Under the pieces are notes generated by a model. It ran no database searches. It had not been told where the DNA came from and saw only the letters and a list, made by a program, of their open reading frames with translations. Below, piece by piece: positions 56,143 through 64,000 of a stretch of DNA of 64,000 nt (positions within the stretch are counted from its first letter, which is position 1; every line of letters starts with the position of its first letter). The stretch is from Gammaproteobacteria bacterium (lineage in GTDB: Bacteria; Pseudomonadota; Gammaproteobacteria; Eutrophobiales; Eutrophobiaceae). Both the position numbers and the translations under genes were made by a program. The stretch lies in assembly GCA_003250975.1 (NCBI GenBank), contig QKIY01000002.1:62001-126000 (forward strand). Direction: 5' to 3'.

Positions 56143-56655
56143 TTAACTATGTGCCTGGAAAGGATGATCAGCTGATCCTTTCTTGGCAACTACTTCAGCT
56201 GCCTTGGGCTCACGAGCAACAGCACGCTTTATAGACTCTTTGGTAGCCTGGTAGTTGTAATCCTGGATCTTGTCGTTGTCTTCAGCCAGCCAGTGAATGA
56301 AGACACCAACGCAAACAAAGATGTCATCAGCTTCGTTAGCCGGGATAGTGCCATCTTCAACACAATCCATCACAGCCATGGCAACCGCGCGCTGTGCAGG
56401 ACCAAACATCTGAACAGCCTGGGTTGCGCCTTTAATGGTTACCTTGTTAAACAGGATCGTGCTTGGTTTACATGCCAGATTAGGAGCAACAACAGCCAGT
56501 AATGTGCTGAATCCATCCTTGTTGTTTGTCAATGCATTACAGAAAGCCGCTTCGACAGCACTGCCACGGGGCCCCATAATCAAGTCGATGTGAGCAACTT
56601 CGTTCCCATCACCAACCAAAGATTCACCAACCAATACTCTATCTATGACTGCCAT
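56143..56655 (-). CDS. fae: Formaldehyde-activating enzyme
   Basis: From ATG 56655, after a strong GGAGGAG site, the product has 170 residues and matches Fae of methylotrophs almost throughout: [12 protein letters not shown] with the general-base histidine (His22 here), [41 protein letters not shown] and a VGVFIHW segment. Fae condenses formaldehyde with H4MPT. An in-frame upstream ATG at 56706 (17 extra residues) also has an AGGAA site. Last gene of the mtdB-mch-fae run. Confidence 0.96.
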
Positions 56656-56798
56656 CTTATTATCTCCTCCAGTTAGAAAGCCAAATAATTTGCTGAAAAT
56701 TGACATTGCTGCTTTCCTTTGTTTTTGAAAGTAAATTTATAAGGTTTACCCCTTATTACCCTTGCGGCATACAGAAGAAAGTCCTCTATGCCTGCAAT

Positions 56799-57662: not shown

Positions 57663-58586
57663 TCAGGACTGCGATGTGAGCGGCTGGGAACCTGCAATCT
57701 TACTGACAAAATCGTCAATGATTCTCGCTGCCAGGTTAAAGTCCGTGACTGACTGCAGTCCCCACCAGGCCGGGATGCTATTGACTTCTATGATCTGGAG
57801 CTTACCGTCTTTATCCACAATTAGATCGACCCCCGCATAATTAATATCAACGGCCCTGACGGCCGCTTCCGCCAGTTCAGTGAGTGGCTTGTCCAGTGGC
57901 AGGTTTTCGCAACGAGCACCTTGGGCCCGGTTGGTAATCCAGCTGTTGCCGTGCCGGTGCATTGCGGCGATTGACTGGCCGTCGATAACGAACACTCTGA
58001 TATCTGACCACTCCGATTTGCTGCGTTCTACAAATGACTGCAGATAATAGACCCCTGCAAATTTTTCATCATGCACCAATGGCGTATCCTTACTGACACG
58101 GTGGATACCCAGCCCCTGAGACCCAAACAGGGGTTTCATGACCAGGGAACGGCCCGAGGCTATTTCACTATTACAGAGTGACTGTGCTTCGGCAATGGAC
58201 TCAAATACCCAGGTACTGGGCGTGGGCAAACCGGCCTGTTTGAGCAACAGTGTGGTCATGGCCTTGTCAACGGTCCGTTCAATGGAACGTGGTTCGTTAT
58301 AGACCACGATGCCCATATACGAAAGGGCATGCAGGATATCCAACCGCAATATCACCTGCTCTAGCGTACCCCCTGGGACCCCCCTAACGAAAACACCGAT
58401 CGGATAATAGTCCTCAAAACCGGGCATACTGACCGGCCTGCCGGAATCTTCGAATCTGAACTGACATTCTGTCAGAGAAACATAGCGGGCACCCAAGCCA
58501 TGCTGGGCCAAGGCGTTGACCAACTCCCGACCATGCCAGCCCGGGTCGTCGGTGATTATGGCTATTTGCGGGCCAAGGTTAGCCAC
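57663..58586 (-). CDS. RimK-family ATP-grasp ligase
   Basis: The 307-residue protein has the RimK ATP-grasp fold: [15 protein letters not shown] as the nucleotide loop, a DIRVFVID segment and metal-binding [10 protein letters not shown] near the end. Family members add glutamate residues to small molecules or proteins; MptN and CofF, which extend the glutamate tail of methanopterin and F420, are relatives. In this island it is a candidate for tail addition to methanopterin or methanofuran. Its start overlaps the mch stop by 8 bases. Confidence 0.8.
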
Positions 58587-59562
58587 ATTTATGACTGAAC
58601 GATTTATTCAGCAAGGCTTTGTCAATCTTGCCGGCATGGAATGAATTACCAGTTTTCAGCGAGGAAACTGTCACCCGGGCAGGACTGAACAACATGGGGT
58701 CAATCTTATAGAAATCGTAACCCACATCCTTAAAGACATTGCCGAAAGGTTTACCATAATCACCGGAGGCGCTGCTGGGCAATTTATTCGCCAATTCCTC
58801 GGCATCATTATCGTCCGCATTGATAAACAGGTGGACCTGTCCGGCAAACAGAATAGCATCGTTGGTACGGCTCATGGCCGTCATGAAGTCCTTTGAGGGG
58901 GGGCAGATCGGTGCACTGCCGGCCCCATCCACAACATCCTCCAACGGGAAGTGAAGGGCATGGACCTTGTGCAAGGCAGTTTCCAGCACCCTGGCTACCA
59001 CCTGTACTGAACCCGCCAGGCTGGATGTTGGGGTCATGATCAGGGTCAGCTTATCCGCCGCTAGACCACACATCTCGCTGATCTTGTCGGCAATCTCGAC
59101 CGGTGGTAGGGTGTCGGCCTCGATAACCAGGCAGGCAGCATCGGCCTTATCCCGGTAATTCAATTCATCAAATAGTTCCTCTTTGCTGCCAATGGCGCGT
59201 CCCGGTCCTGATCCGAGGGCATTAAAGGCCCCCTTGCCTTCGCCATGTGACAGGCTCCAGCCGGCATATTGGCTGGCCAGACAGGCGATGACCGGATTTG
59301 AGGTATGTATGTCCACATGCCATGACCAGTTTTCAAAATTGGTGGAGGCACGGAGTTTGACTATCCCAAGCCCACCCAGGCATATCTCCGAGATATGCCT
59401 GCCAGCTTCCAGTCCACCGGGGGCCTTGATGCCGGCATCCACCACCGTGGTGCCATTGGGCAGTTTGCTGACAGCCACTCTCAGGGGAACGGCGTTTTCA
59501 ATTAATGAGCTAACCAGTGATTTGCTGAGAGTATTGACACTCGGAAAATTATTATTTGGCAT
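58579..59562 (-). CDS. mch: Methenyl-H4MPT cyclohydrolase
   Basis: The 327-residue protein matches Mch along its length: [21 protein letters not shown] near 44-64, [22 protein letters not shown] near 82-103, and the ALGSGPGRA loop near 115-123. It converts methenyl-H4MPT to formyl-H4MPT and is a trimeric cytosolic enzyme. Forms part of the RFAP synthase-mtdB-ATP-grasp-mch-rimK-like-citG-like-fae run, with tight spacing to the next gene. Confidence 0.95.
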
Positions 59563-59601: not shown

Positions 59602-60726
59602 TTACGCAGCTAACTTATCCATCCCCATTAGCTGCCGCAGGGATGTCAGCCTGTTGTGTAACAATTGATTAATCTCGGCCCGCGTCCCTGCCTGTGCCTG
59701 AATAGAGCAAACAGGCTCTCCCGCCTCAATAATTCGACCATTGACCGGCCTGTCACAGGCCCAGTCAGGCCAGTCCACTTCCGGCATTATAAACGACTTG
59801 TCCGCATAGATAATCCGGTATGCCCTAAACGGCTTCTCCGTTACTATGACAGGCACCAGTCGCCCCTGGCAGGCCTGCAGATGGGCGTAAAACAGGCTGG
59901 TATCAATCTCATGCAACTCGAATGTCGCGGTGGGCCGGGGATTCAATTCGAGCAAAAACCATGACCCGCTTTCGGTTAGCGCCATGTCCAGCCCACAGAG
60001 CCCTTTCAGTCCCAATGCTTTGGTCAGCGACATGACCGCCTCTTGCAAGCTTTGCACTAATGACTCGGGCGCCCGAGGCACTGTGACAGCACCCGCATAC
60101 CGGTAATTCCCCTTTTCAGGGGCAACAGACCAGATCTCATTCAGGCCAATGATAATTGCAGAGTGACCGTCTGCCAGGAATACAACAGAATGGATGACCC
60201 CATTTATTTTCTCTTGCAGATAGTCATCATCTGCAACCGGATCTCCATTGGAATAATGACGCAGGTGTCCGCCACCACAGCCACCTTTTTTCTTCAGCAG
60301 CCACTCCCCTCTTCGTTGAGGACCTTTCAGCGCGATTTCGGGGGTCGGGATCCCCAGCTTTTCCAGCATGGTGGCAAAATTTTCAGGGTCCTTGCAGGTA
60401 CGTACAGTCTCCCGTGAGTTGCCCCACAAGGACCAATGCCGGGAGATAAAGTCATAAACTTCTGCATCGCCTGTTTCAAGCCCACTACCTGTTACCACGC
60501 CACTAATTGGCAGGCGTGTACACTCGGCCATGCACTGCAAGAGGCTCGAAGACTTGAAAGAACCATCGGGATGGCTTTTGGCCTGTACGGTCTTGAGTGC
60601 TACCGTACGGGTATCCTGGTCGGCGAAATAATCGATTGTGTAAACTTGTAGCCCTGCCCTAGCTGCTGATACAGTCAGGGCCCGGGCAGACTGGGAAATA
60701 ATCAGGCAGTGACTATTTCGCGGCAT
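59602..60726 (-). CDS. ATP-grasp protein of the H4MPT island
   Basis: From ATG 60726 (14-base overlap with mtdB) the product has 374 residues. ATP-grasp motifs are visible (LLKKKGGCGGGHLR near 155-168 and LLELNPRPTATFELHE near 258-273). The N-terminal part is a Rossmann-like domain (LIISQSARALTVSAARAG). It corresponds to the ATP-grasp genes regularly present in H4MPT islands, needed for the C1 pathway but biochemically undefined. A start 10 codons upstream is possible. Confidence 0.82.
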   Translation of the reverse strand: MPRNSHCLIISQSARALTVSAARAGLQVYTIDYFADQDTRTVALKTVQAKSHPDGSFKSSSLLQCMAECTRLPISGVVTGSGLETGDAEVYDFISRHWSLWGNSRETVRTCKDPENFATMLEKLGIPTPEIALKGPQRRGEWLLKKKGGCGGGHLRHYSNGDPVADDDYLQEKINGVIHSVVFLADGHSAIIIGLNEIWSVAPEKGNYRYAGAVTVPRAPESLVQSLQEAVMSLTKALGLKGLCGLDMALTESGSWFLLELNPRPTATFELHEIDTSLFYAHLQACQGRLVPVIVTEKPFRAYRIIYADKSFIMPEVDWPDWACDRPVNGRIIEAGEPVCSIQAQAGTRAEINQLLHNRLTSLRQLMGMDKLAA

Positions 60727-61618
60727 ACTCTCTGGCTGATTCGAACGCCCTTTCATGGTCCAGATAGAGTGGCTTGTCGGTCGTCTTCATCAGCTCAAAC
60801 ATATGGTAATGGACCTTGTATTTCACATTACCAATGGCCAGTGCTCCAATACCCAGTGCCTTCTGGGGGGTGTCTTCCAGGACCTTGCCCATATCATGGA
60901 CATCAACACCCTCTATACCCAGCGGCGGCACGGCGTTCACATCTGCCGCTATCTGAAGCCTTTTGCCGGCTTTCAGATGTGCTTTCGACATAACCTGTAT
61001 ACCTGCTTTTGCCGCACCGACTACTACATCAGAGATCTCCATCATCTTCAGAATGGCTTTATCGGAGCTGAAATCCTCACCCTGCATATTGGTGCTGAAA
61101 CGCTTGTTATATTCATTGGCGACCTCGTCGCCCACTTTCTTACCCCGGTGAGAGGCCAGAAAGACATTGGCTCCGCAGTTGGCCAAAAGAATTCCGGCAC
61201 AGACTCCCACAGGCCCGGTGCCACCGAGGATATGGACATTCTTATTCTCAAGACTGTCACCGGTCTTCTTTTTCAACTGAGCTTCAACACAGGCGACCAA
61301 GGCAGCAGCTGTTGTGATCGCACCACTGGGATCGGCAAATACCGATACCTCAAATGGCGGGACCATGGCAACCTTGGCCCGTTGCAGCATATCCATGGCA
61401 AGACCAAATTCCCTGCCGCCGATAAAAATACCGGTGCGCTTAACGCCGGTGGGTCCCCTGGAGAAAATAGTATCCTGTGTCATGGCATGAATATCTTCTA
61501 GACTCACATTGTCATAAGGTATGACGCCATCAAATTCAGCTTCATAGGCCATATTGACATCAAACGGACTGACATTCTCGGTCGGATTAAACATATGAAG
61601 TAAATACGGATTTTTCAT
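60713..61618 (-). CDS. mtdB: Methylene-H4MPT dehydrogenase
   Basis: The 301-residue NAD(P)-dependent enzyme matches MtdB: the FSRGPTGVKRTGIFIGGRE segment near 53-71 and the Rossmann loop HILGGTGPVGVCAGILLA near 139-156. It oxidises methylene-H4MPT to methenyl-H4MPT in the cytosol. It is the second gene of the minus-strand run after RFAP synthase (43 bases). MtdB is favoured over MtdA from the context with Fae and Mch. Confidence 0.93.
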   Translation of the reverse strand: MKNPYLLHMFNPTENVSPFDVNMAYEAEFDGVIPYDNVSLEDIHAMTQDTIFSRGPTGVKRTGIFIGGREFGLAMDMLQRAKVAMVPPFEVSVFADPSGAITTAAALVACVEAQLKKKTGDSLENKNVHILGGTGPVGVCAGILLANCGANVFLASHRGKKVGDEVANEYNKRFSTNMQGEDFSSDKAILKMMEISDVVVGAAKAGIQVMSKAHLKAGKRLQIAADVNAVPPLGIEGVDVHDMGKVLEDTPQKALGIGALAIGNVKYKVHYHMFELMKTTDKPLYLDHERAFESAREYAAK

Positions 61619-61661: not shown

Positions 61662-62684
61662 TTATTTGTGTATAAGAAATTGCCTGCTTCCAGCAACATC
61701 CTCTGCCGAGATTTCAGCTTTCTGATTACGTGCACGGCAGACCTTGAAGGATAAACTGGATTCATACTGCCACTCTTCACGTGCCTTTTTCAAGGCCTGA
61801 TAGGCCTTGGTTTCATTCGGGAAAAGGGCAAATCCGGTGGGTCCCCATGAGCTCTGCCCAATCCCCGTCGCACCCTGCTCAGATAACCAGGGTAAAACCT
61901 CCGCGACCCGGGGGCTATAATAGCGGCCACCTTGTGCGGCTGCGAAATGATCCCCCACATGGCACTGGATCTCGGAAATGGCGCTACCAAACAACTTGCA
62001 ATTACCTTCCGCCAGCGCGGGCAAGAGCTGCATCAGCGTCAACCGGCACATCTGGGCCGAGCGGTCCTCAGACATCGGCGGCAGCTCCCTAAAGGCCCGG
62101 GTTTCCGACGAGCCATGCATCCCCTGACGGCCTGAATCAAATATCAACAAGATTCGCCAGGAATCAGGAAAATGCAGACGACAGATGACGGGCGGCACAT
62201 CGGTGTCCGAACCACGGCCACCATCCACCAAAAAGCCCCCCGAGAGAAAGGCTCCGATACCGATCCCGGATCGGGCCCCGCGTCCCATCAGCTTGGCGAT
62301 TTCCTGGAGCGAGATGGTCTTTCCATAAAGCCTAGAAATGGCACTGCCCACGGCTAGTGATAACTGCGTACCTGAACCCAGTCCTGCGTGCTCAGGGATG
62401 GCTTCGTGAATATTTATCTCCGCACCCTTGCTGATATTGAGATGCTGCAGGATCCGCCCCGCATAGACACTCGCACGGTGACTGGAAGGGCCATGGATAA
62501 TGACATCCCCGGAGGTTTTCGCCGATATGTGGGTATATATCTCCTCCAGACATAGACCCAGACTACCGAAACTACGACCCAGACCGCCATGCATGTCGAT
62601 AAAGCCCAGATGCAGGCGTCCCGGAGCCTTGATATGGATGATATTTTGAGTATCTGACTGGTTGGATTGTGGTTGTTTTGCCAC
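61662..62684 (-). CDS. RFAP synthase (methanopterin synthesis)
   Basis: The 340-residue GHMP-kinase-fold protein starts at GTG 62684. The motif PEHAGLGSGTQLSLAVG is near 97-113, and the N-terminus HIKAPGRLHLGFIDMHG is typical of beta-ribofuranosylaminobenzene 5'-phosphate synthase. It joins p-aminobenzoate to phosphoribosyl pyrophosphate with loss of CO2, the first dedicated methanopterin step; PabB is encoded at 52-53 kb. It leads the run mtdB-mch-fae. Confidence 0.9.
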   Translation of the reverse strand: MAKQPQSNQSDTQNIIHIKAPGRLHLGFIDMHGGLGRSFGSLGLCLEEIYTHISAKTSGDVIIHGPSSHRASVYAGRILQHLNISKGAEINIHEAIPEHAGLGSGTQLSLAVGSAISRLYGKTISLQEIAKLMGRGARSGIGIGAFLSGGFLVDGGRGSDTDVPPVICRLHFPDSWRILLIFDSGRQGMHGSSETRAFRELPPMSEDRSAQMCRLTLMQLLPALAEGNCKLFGSAISEIQCHVGDHFAAAQGGRYYSPRVAEVLPWLSEQGATGIGQSSWGPTGFALFPNETKAYQALKKAREEWQYESSLSFKVCRARNQKAEISAEDVAGSRQFLIHK

Positions 62685-62955: not shown

Positions 62956-63309
62956 ATGGCTAAGTCCGAATCGATGATATTAATCCCGGGTCGTACCAGT
63001 AAGCAGGGGACGTCGCTCAATAAAGGCAAGCTCAAGGATGAATACATTGAGGTGTCCACCACTGTTGAGATGAACCTGGATGATATGACCAGATTGAAAC
63101 TGCAAGAGGGAGACCAGGTCAGGCTCAGCAATGAGATTGGAAGTACGGTTGTCCGTTGCAAGGGCCGTAAACCGGAAGACCTGCCAGCAGGGATCCTGTT
63201 TATAGCTTATGGTCCTCCATCAAGCCAGTTGATGGGCAGTGATACTGCCGGCAGTGGCATGCCCCTTTCCAAGCACATGCGGGTCTCAGTAGAAAAGGTA
63301 TCCGCATGA
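62956..63309 (+). CDS. Formylmethanofuran dehydrogenase subunit D-like
   Basis: The 117-residue protein is a stand-alone molybdopterin dinucleotide binding domain of the FwdD/FmdD type: LIPGRTSKQG near the N-terminus, LKLQEGDQVRLSNEIG in the middle, and the GP..SQLMGSDTAGSGMPLSKHM segment. In archaeal FMD this subunit completes the pterin site of the B subunit. It lies 36 bases before the B-subunit gene and diverges from RFAP synthase. Confidence 0.88.
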   Translation: MAKSESMILIPGRTSKQGTSLNKGKLKDEYIEVSTTVEMNLDDMTRLKLQEGDQVRLSNEIGSTVVRCKGRKPEDLPAGILFIAYGPPSSQLMGSDTAGSGMPLSKHMRVSVEKVSA

Positions 63310-63345
63310 TCGTTCTCAACCGAAACATCCGGACGGAAATGCAAA

Positions 63346-64000
63346 ATGGCTGACAATATACGTACTGTTAAACACGCCACGTGCACATTCTGCGGCTGTG
63401 TCTGTGATGATATGGAGCTTACCGTAGATATGGACAAGAAGGTAATCACCAAGGCCAAGAATGCCTGTGTTCTCGGTCGTGCCTGGTTCGCGGAGCATCA
63501 CATAGAAGATCGTCCTGCTGCAATGATCGACGGCAAAGAGGTGACCGTTGAAGAGGCCATCGAGGAAGCGGCCCAAGTCCTGGCCGGGGCCAAATTCCCG
63601 ATCACTTACGGTCTGAGTGATACTACTTGCGAGGCGCAACGCCAGGCCGTCGCCATCACCGATATCATCAGAGGTACTTTGGATACTACAACTTCCGTCT
63701 GCCATGGTCCCTCCGGCTTGGCCTTCCAGGGAGTCGGGGAAAGTACCATGTCACTGGGAGAGGTCAAGAACCGTGCTGACCTGGTGATTTACTGGGGAGG
63801 TAATCCGGCTGAATCACATCCCCGCCATTTTCGATATGCTGTAACTCCCAAGGGGATGTTCATCCCCAACGGCAAAAAAGACCGGACTGTGGTGATGATC
63901 GATGTCAGGAAGACACCCAGTGCACCCGTGGCCGATATTCTGATACAGATCAAACCGGGTAAGGACTTCGAACTGCTCTGGGCACTGAGGGCCAAGGTCA
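63346..64000 (+). CDS. fhcB: Formylmethanofuran dehydrogenase subunit B (FhcB/FmdB), 3' end beyond window
   Basis: The frame from ATG 63346 stays open to the window edge (218 codons visible). A 4Fe-4S motif is complete: Cys13-x2-Cys16-x3-Cys20 (CTFCGCVCDD) with Cys41. Cys119-His120 in TSVCHGPSG falls at the position of the Mo/W-ligand cysteine of archaeal FwdB. The gene begins 36 bases after the D-subunit gene. In Methylobacterium the FhcB subunit is reported to lack these redox sites; here they are present. The other subunits (A, C, Ftr) would lie to the right. Confidence 0.9.
   Translation, partial: MADNIRTVKHATCTFCGCVCDDMELTVDMDKKVITKAKNACVLGRAWFAEHHIEDRPAAMIDGKEVTVEEAIEEAAQVLAGAKFPITYGLSDTTCEAQRQAVAITDIIRGTLDTTTSVCHGPSGLAFQGVGESTMSLGEVKNRADLVIYWGGNPAESHPRHFRYAVTPKGMFIPNGKKDRTVVMIDVRKTPSAPVADILIQIKPGKDFELLWALRAKV

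Follow-up and report, generated by a model that had tools for sequence, protein, structure and literature searches.

Formylmethanofuran dehydrogenases of the Fwd/Fmd type are known from Archaea, where the tungsten or molybdenum enzyme FwdABCD(FG) (5T5I, 7BKB) fixes CO2 as formylmethanofuran in methanogens (PMC11656701). In Ca. Ethanoperedens (8RJA; PMC11493965) an oxidative Fwd is coupled through a bound, dedicated flavin reductase to the two-electron carrier F420. In bacteria, the characterised homologue is the formyltransferase/hydrolase complex Fhc of Methylorubrum extorquens (6S6Y; FhcABCD), whose B subunit lacks the Mo/W site and which releases formate, and H4MPT-dependent methylotrophy is described as ending with this step. 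Nevertheless, bacterial FwdB acquired from Archaea by horizontal gene transfer has been reported (PMC10100899), and an actinobacterial (Hakuba) fwdDBA-ftr-fwdC cluster retaining Cys118 was described from a subsurface Wood-Ljungdahl setting, with no H4MPT-synthesis genes and no FwdE/F/G reported (PMC7325909). In 2016 fwdD was stated to be absent from Proteobacteria and Planctomycetes (PMC5020050).

The window, i.e. the whole stretch of 64,000 nucleotides analysed here, corresponds to positions 62001-126000 of contig C39 of a 2.3 Mb, 94.5% complete gammaproteobacterial genome. It ends within fwdB. The first-pass annotation had proposed, from the sequence alone, that a separate FwdD and a FwdB with intact 4Fe-4S ligands and a Cys-His pair belong to a true formylmethanofuran dehydrogenase rather than to an Fhc. 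Both reading frames are present as described. The following features of the window are of relevance:

62956..63309 (+): fwdD, separate molybdopterin-dinucleotide-binding subunit (117 aa)
63346..64000 (+): fwdB, predicted catalytic Mo/W subunit, cut by the window end; the full gene runs to window coordinate 64707 (453 aa)
61662..62684 (-): divergent mptG-like (GHMP kinase-fold) H4MPT-biosynthesis gene
60713..61618 (-): mtdB-like methylene-H4MPT dehydrogenase
58579..59562 (-): mch-like methenyl-H4MPT cyclohydrolase
57663..58586 (-): RimK-like ATP-grasp ligase (possible MyfB/Orf5, methylofuran glutamate ligase)
56143..56706 (-): fae-like formaldehyde-activating enzyme

The contig continues beyond the window, and a second stretch (L004, C39:122001-142000) gives the remainder of the locus. 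Here fwdB (L004 3346-4707) is followed by fwdA, ftr, fwdC, fdxA encoding a 101-aa ferredoxin, and fprA encoding a 458-aa ferredoxin-NADP reductase (L004 4763-9845). After 0.2 kb a separate fhcBADC operon and genes of an NAD-type formate dehydrogenase of the molybdopterin type follow (L004 10059-19188). Thus, the complete operon reads fwdD-fwdB-fwdA-ftr-fwdC-fdxA-fprA, and Fwd does not replace Fhc in this organism. The genes upstream of fwdD on the opposite strand belong to the H4MPT/methylofuran pathway and cofactor synthesis, and in many fhc-only relatives the mptG-like gene directly faces fhcB. The ATP-grasp ligase was identified by PF08443 (1.1e-23), its role being inferred by analogy (PMC8141765). 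An XoxF-like methanol dehydrogenase gene is located about 18 kb past the window end. The assignments of fae, mch, mtdB, XoxF and the formate dehydrogenase rest on reading of the translated sequences, and for the first three also on conserved synteny.

Profile searches confirmed the identity of the subunits. FwdB matches TIGR03129 with 509.9 bits (curated cut-off 327.8), while the neighbouring FhcB scores 319.7 and remains below the cut-off. FwdA (TIGR03121, 711.7 bits) and FwdC (TIGR03122, 261.4 bits) also exceed their cut-offs, and the amidohydrolase metal-site motifs of archaeal FwdA are retained. FwdD matches Molydop_binding (PF01568, 1.2e-9) and the FwdD model NF042908 (1.4e-19). Although its score (70 of 175 bits) is below the curated cut-off of this methanogen-specific model, FwdD was matched to five FwdD chains, including 2ki8_A (phmmer, 5e-16), 8rja_D and 5t5i_D. 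FwdF/FwdG (poly)ferredoxin subunits as in 5T5I are not present in the operon, where FdxA takes their position. Since electron-transfer modules vary among known Fwd (PMC11656701) and no ferredoxin subunits were reported for the actinobacterial cluster (PMC7325909), we do not regard this feature as defining. The fhcBADC operon downstream has no D (pterin-binding) subunit.

The full-length FwdB is 38-45% identical to solved archaeal enzymes, the nearest B subunit by identity being 8RJA_B (45%). An AlphaFold model of FwdB built from a shallow alignment reached a mean pLDDT of only 65 and was not used, as this level of identity to solved structures makes it unnecessary. In an alignment to FwdB of 5T5I the four cluster cysteines C13, C16, C20 and C41 correspond to C9, C12, C16 and C35, while C119, H120 and R291 fall on C118, H119 and R288. 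These three residues presumably form the catalytic site; Cys118 is also named as catalytic in PMC7325909. The triad is invariant in all 92 bacterial FwdB examined, whereas none of the three residues is kept in 51 FhcB; the FhcB of the same genome has A/A/G at these positions. The possibility raised in the first-pass annotation that Fhc proteins carry the same cysteines proved to be half right, since 37 of 51 FhcB keep all four cluster cysteines. It is therefore the triad and FwdD, and not the iron-sulfur ligands, that distinguish the two complexes. The FhcB of this genome (L004 10059-11336; C39:132059-133336) is among those retaining the four cysteines, while the solved M. extorquens FhcB chain has only 361 residues, which may reflect an intermediate stage in the loss of redox function.

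A tree of 148 B subunits separated Fhc from Fwd (support 100) and placed the 92 bacterial FwdB in one group (98) next to five archaeal chains, albeit with a quick method, few Archaea and a midpoint root. In the 30 loci holding both genes, FwdB averages 78.6% and FhcB 45.5% identity to the proteins of the window genome, with FwdB being higher in 30/30 loci. The B subunit with the triad is thus under much stronger constraint. These data bear on the possibility that FwdBD is merely a scaffold or vestige and that the operon works like Fhc, releasing formate. The shared gene order B-A-Ftr-C, the status of Fhc as the characterised bacterial homologue and the retention of Fe-S cysteines by FhcB without the Mo/W site would be compatible with such a non-redox complex. 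However, the invariance of the triad across several phyla, the retention of FwdD, the stronger conservation of FwdB, the redox partners described below and the presence of a separate Fhc in most of these genomes make this improbable.

In the family to which the window organism belongs (53 species), 41 genomes have the FwdB type, many of them with fhcB about 6 to 7 kb away on the same contig. In a sample of 369 genomes of the class, 14 genomes in nine families have it, the identities being bimodal (70-100% for the FwdB type, 24-33% for the FhcB type). A named scan found 261 relatives, the best 80 originating from Gammaproteobacteria, Betaproteobacteria, Gemmatimonadetes, Chloroflexi and Planctomycetota, among them genomes labelled Methylomonas, Methylothermaceae and Crenotrichaceae. 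Six genomes of at least 96% completeness (G018, G032, G091, G231, G260, G337) have FwdB and no FhcB at the threshold used, and all six carry fdxA and fprA beside fwd. In such genomes Fwd would be the only known exit from formyl-H4MPT, although gaps in the assembled genomes or a very divergent FhcB cannot be excluded. In G260, fdxA is found on both sides of one fwd operon (locus L159, 2055-2357 and 8030-8332).

We next inspected the gene neighbourhood for electron partners. Of 51 fwd loci with enough flank, 42 have fdxA and fprA on the same strand within 9 kb, 5 have a fusion described below, 1 has fdxA only and 3, all from Chloroflexi, have neither. Of 20 fhc-only loci none has fdxA and one has fprA, i.e. 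none carries the pair. The single exception (locus L112, position 10161, genome G296) contains no fwd genes but belongs to the same genus as genome G184, whose locus L097 has the complete module, so that fprA looks like a remnant of a deletion. In loci L047, L069, L079, L081 and L088 the pair is located upstream of fwdD instead of downstream; this arrangement occurs in Betaproteobacteria, some Gammaproteobacteria and a Gemmatimonadetes locus. As the loci are related by descent the counts are not independent trials, and the survival of linkage through rearrangement and the spread over phyla are the stronger argument. The Chloroflexi clusters (L073, L075, L082) have mtdB- and mch-like genes but no linked ferredoxin or reductase, and the extra genes between fwdB and fwdA in L073 and L075 do not look like electron-transfer genes as judged by eye.

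FdxA is a 7Fe ferredoxin of the Azotobacter FdI type, and the nearest solved relatives of FprA are NADPH-ferredoxin and adrenodoxin reductases. In methanotrophs of the order Methylococcales the FwdD gene is divergent and fused: residues 7-112 match FwdD, while residues 138-736 represent a complete CysJ-type NADPH diflavin reductase (TIGR01931, over the curated cut-off), as seen in L086 7535-9745, L101 7516-9720 and L092 1559-3751. Of 251 genomes of this order 15 have FwdD; 11 are full-length fusions, one is cut by a contig end, and the three unfused ones have fdxA beside fwdD. Of ten such genomes first seen in the named scan, eight hold a gene that aligns over the whole fusion and two hold parts. 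The two wirings may be independent origins, which the tree does not settle. It could be argued that FdxA/FprA is a general ferredoxin system and that electrons are mainly transferred to another acceptor such as nitrogenase or respiration. Indeed, a second FdxA (51% identical) exists in the genome, and the Chloroflexi members lack linked partners. Nevertheless, we consider this doubtful, as the fused CysJ module is an NADPH reductase and FprA is the only full-length copy in the genome.

Taken together, the genes probably encode a redox-active formylmethanofuran (methylofuran) dehydrogenase of aerobic bacteria, in line with the first-pass annotation, although metal binding, electron path, direction and product are inferred from sequence without biochemical data. 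According to this model, Ftr moves the formyl group from formyl-H4MPT to methylofuran, FwdA hydrolyses formyl-methylofuran, and the formate passes internally to FwdBD, where a Mo- or W-bis-pterin site (Cys119 ligand, His120, Arg291) oxidises it to CO2. The electrons would leave through the [4Fe-4S] cluster of FwdB to FdxA, and FprA would pass them to NADP+, giving NADPH; in Methylococcales the flavoprotein fused to FwdD takes the place of FdxA and FprA. As FwdF/FwdG are absent, FwdB would have to meet FdxA directly. The genome has MobA, while an Rfam search for a molybdenum-cofactor riboswitch near the operon gave nothing above chance. Formyl-H4MPT would then have two exits in organisms that also have Fhc: free formate (then NADH), or CO2 plus NADPH.

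The first-pass annotation had also considered the reverse reaction, i.e. CO2 fixation. Fwd would then fix CO2 as formyl-methylofuran using NADPH or ferredoxin electrons, feeding C1 assimilation or a Wood-Ljungdahl-like route. Archaeal Fwd works in this direction in methanogens, and FprA and CysJ homologues usually oxidise NADPH, so that gene identity alone does not fix the direction. However, the CO2/formyl-MFR couple lies at -0.53 V (PMC11656701) against roughly -0.32 V for NADP, and NADPH is too weak a reductant for this reaction: oxidation is about 40 kJ/mol downhill and the reverse is uphill. Furthermore, no RuBisCO or CdhC gene was found, and the operon is located in a formaldehyde-oxidation gene island (fae, mtdB, mch) of an organism with an XoxF-like methanol dehydrogenase. 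CO2 fixation is therefore unlikely.

Compared with the archaeal enzymes, this system shares the A, B, C and D subunits, the cluster cysteines, the Cys-His-Arg site and the amidohydrolase motifs, but has Ftr inside the operon and FdxA plus FprA, or a FwdD-CysJ fusion, instead of FwdF/FwdG; its hosts are apparently aerobic bacteria, and methylofuran rather than methanofuran is expected as cofactor. The Ca. Ethanoperedens complex is a functional parallel, with F420 and an archaeal reductase subunit in place of NADP+ and FdxA-FprA or the CysJ-type fusion. M. extorquens Fhc has in common with the present system the B-A-Ftr-C gene set, methylofuran and the H4MPT pathway. The Hakuba cluster has the same gene order, in a Wood-Ljungdahl setting rather than aerobic methylotrophy. 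While bacterial FwdB as such was already known, the operon in apparent aerobic methylotrophs beside Fhc, the conserved FdxA-FprA module and the FwdD-CysJ fusion seem to be new as far as the searched papers show; in the text considered of the survey reporting bacterial FwdB (PMC10100899) neither electron partners, an NADP link and such a fusion nor coexistence with Fhc are described. The presence of fwdD in these genomes also updates the 2016 statement that Proteobacteria lack this gene (PMC5020050). More likely than not, aerobic methylotrophic and methanotrophic bacteria have a second, formate-free terminal C1 oxidation by an NADP+-reducing formyl-methylofuran dehydrogenase, wired in two different ways, which coexists with Fhc in some lineages and is the only exit from formyl-H4MPT in others. 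Besides the formate dehydrogenase genes following fhcBADC, a second formate dehydrogenase with a twin-arginine-like signal was noted by eye on another contig (L166 1806-4727; C22:60305-63226), next to an Fe-S subunit, a cytochrome b and a formate/nitrite-channel-like gene.
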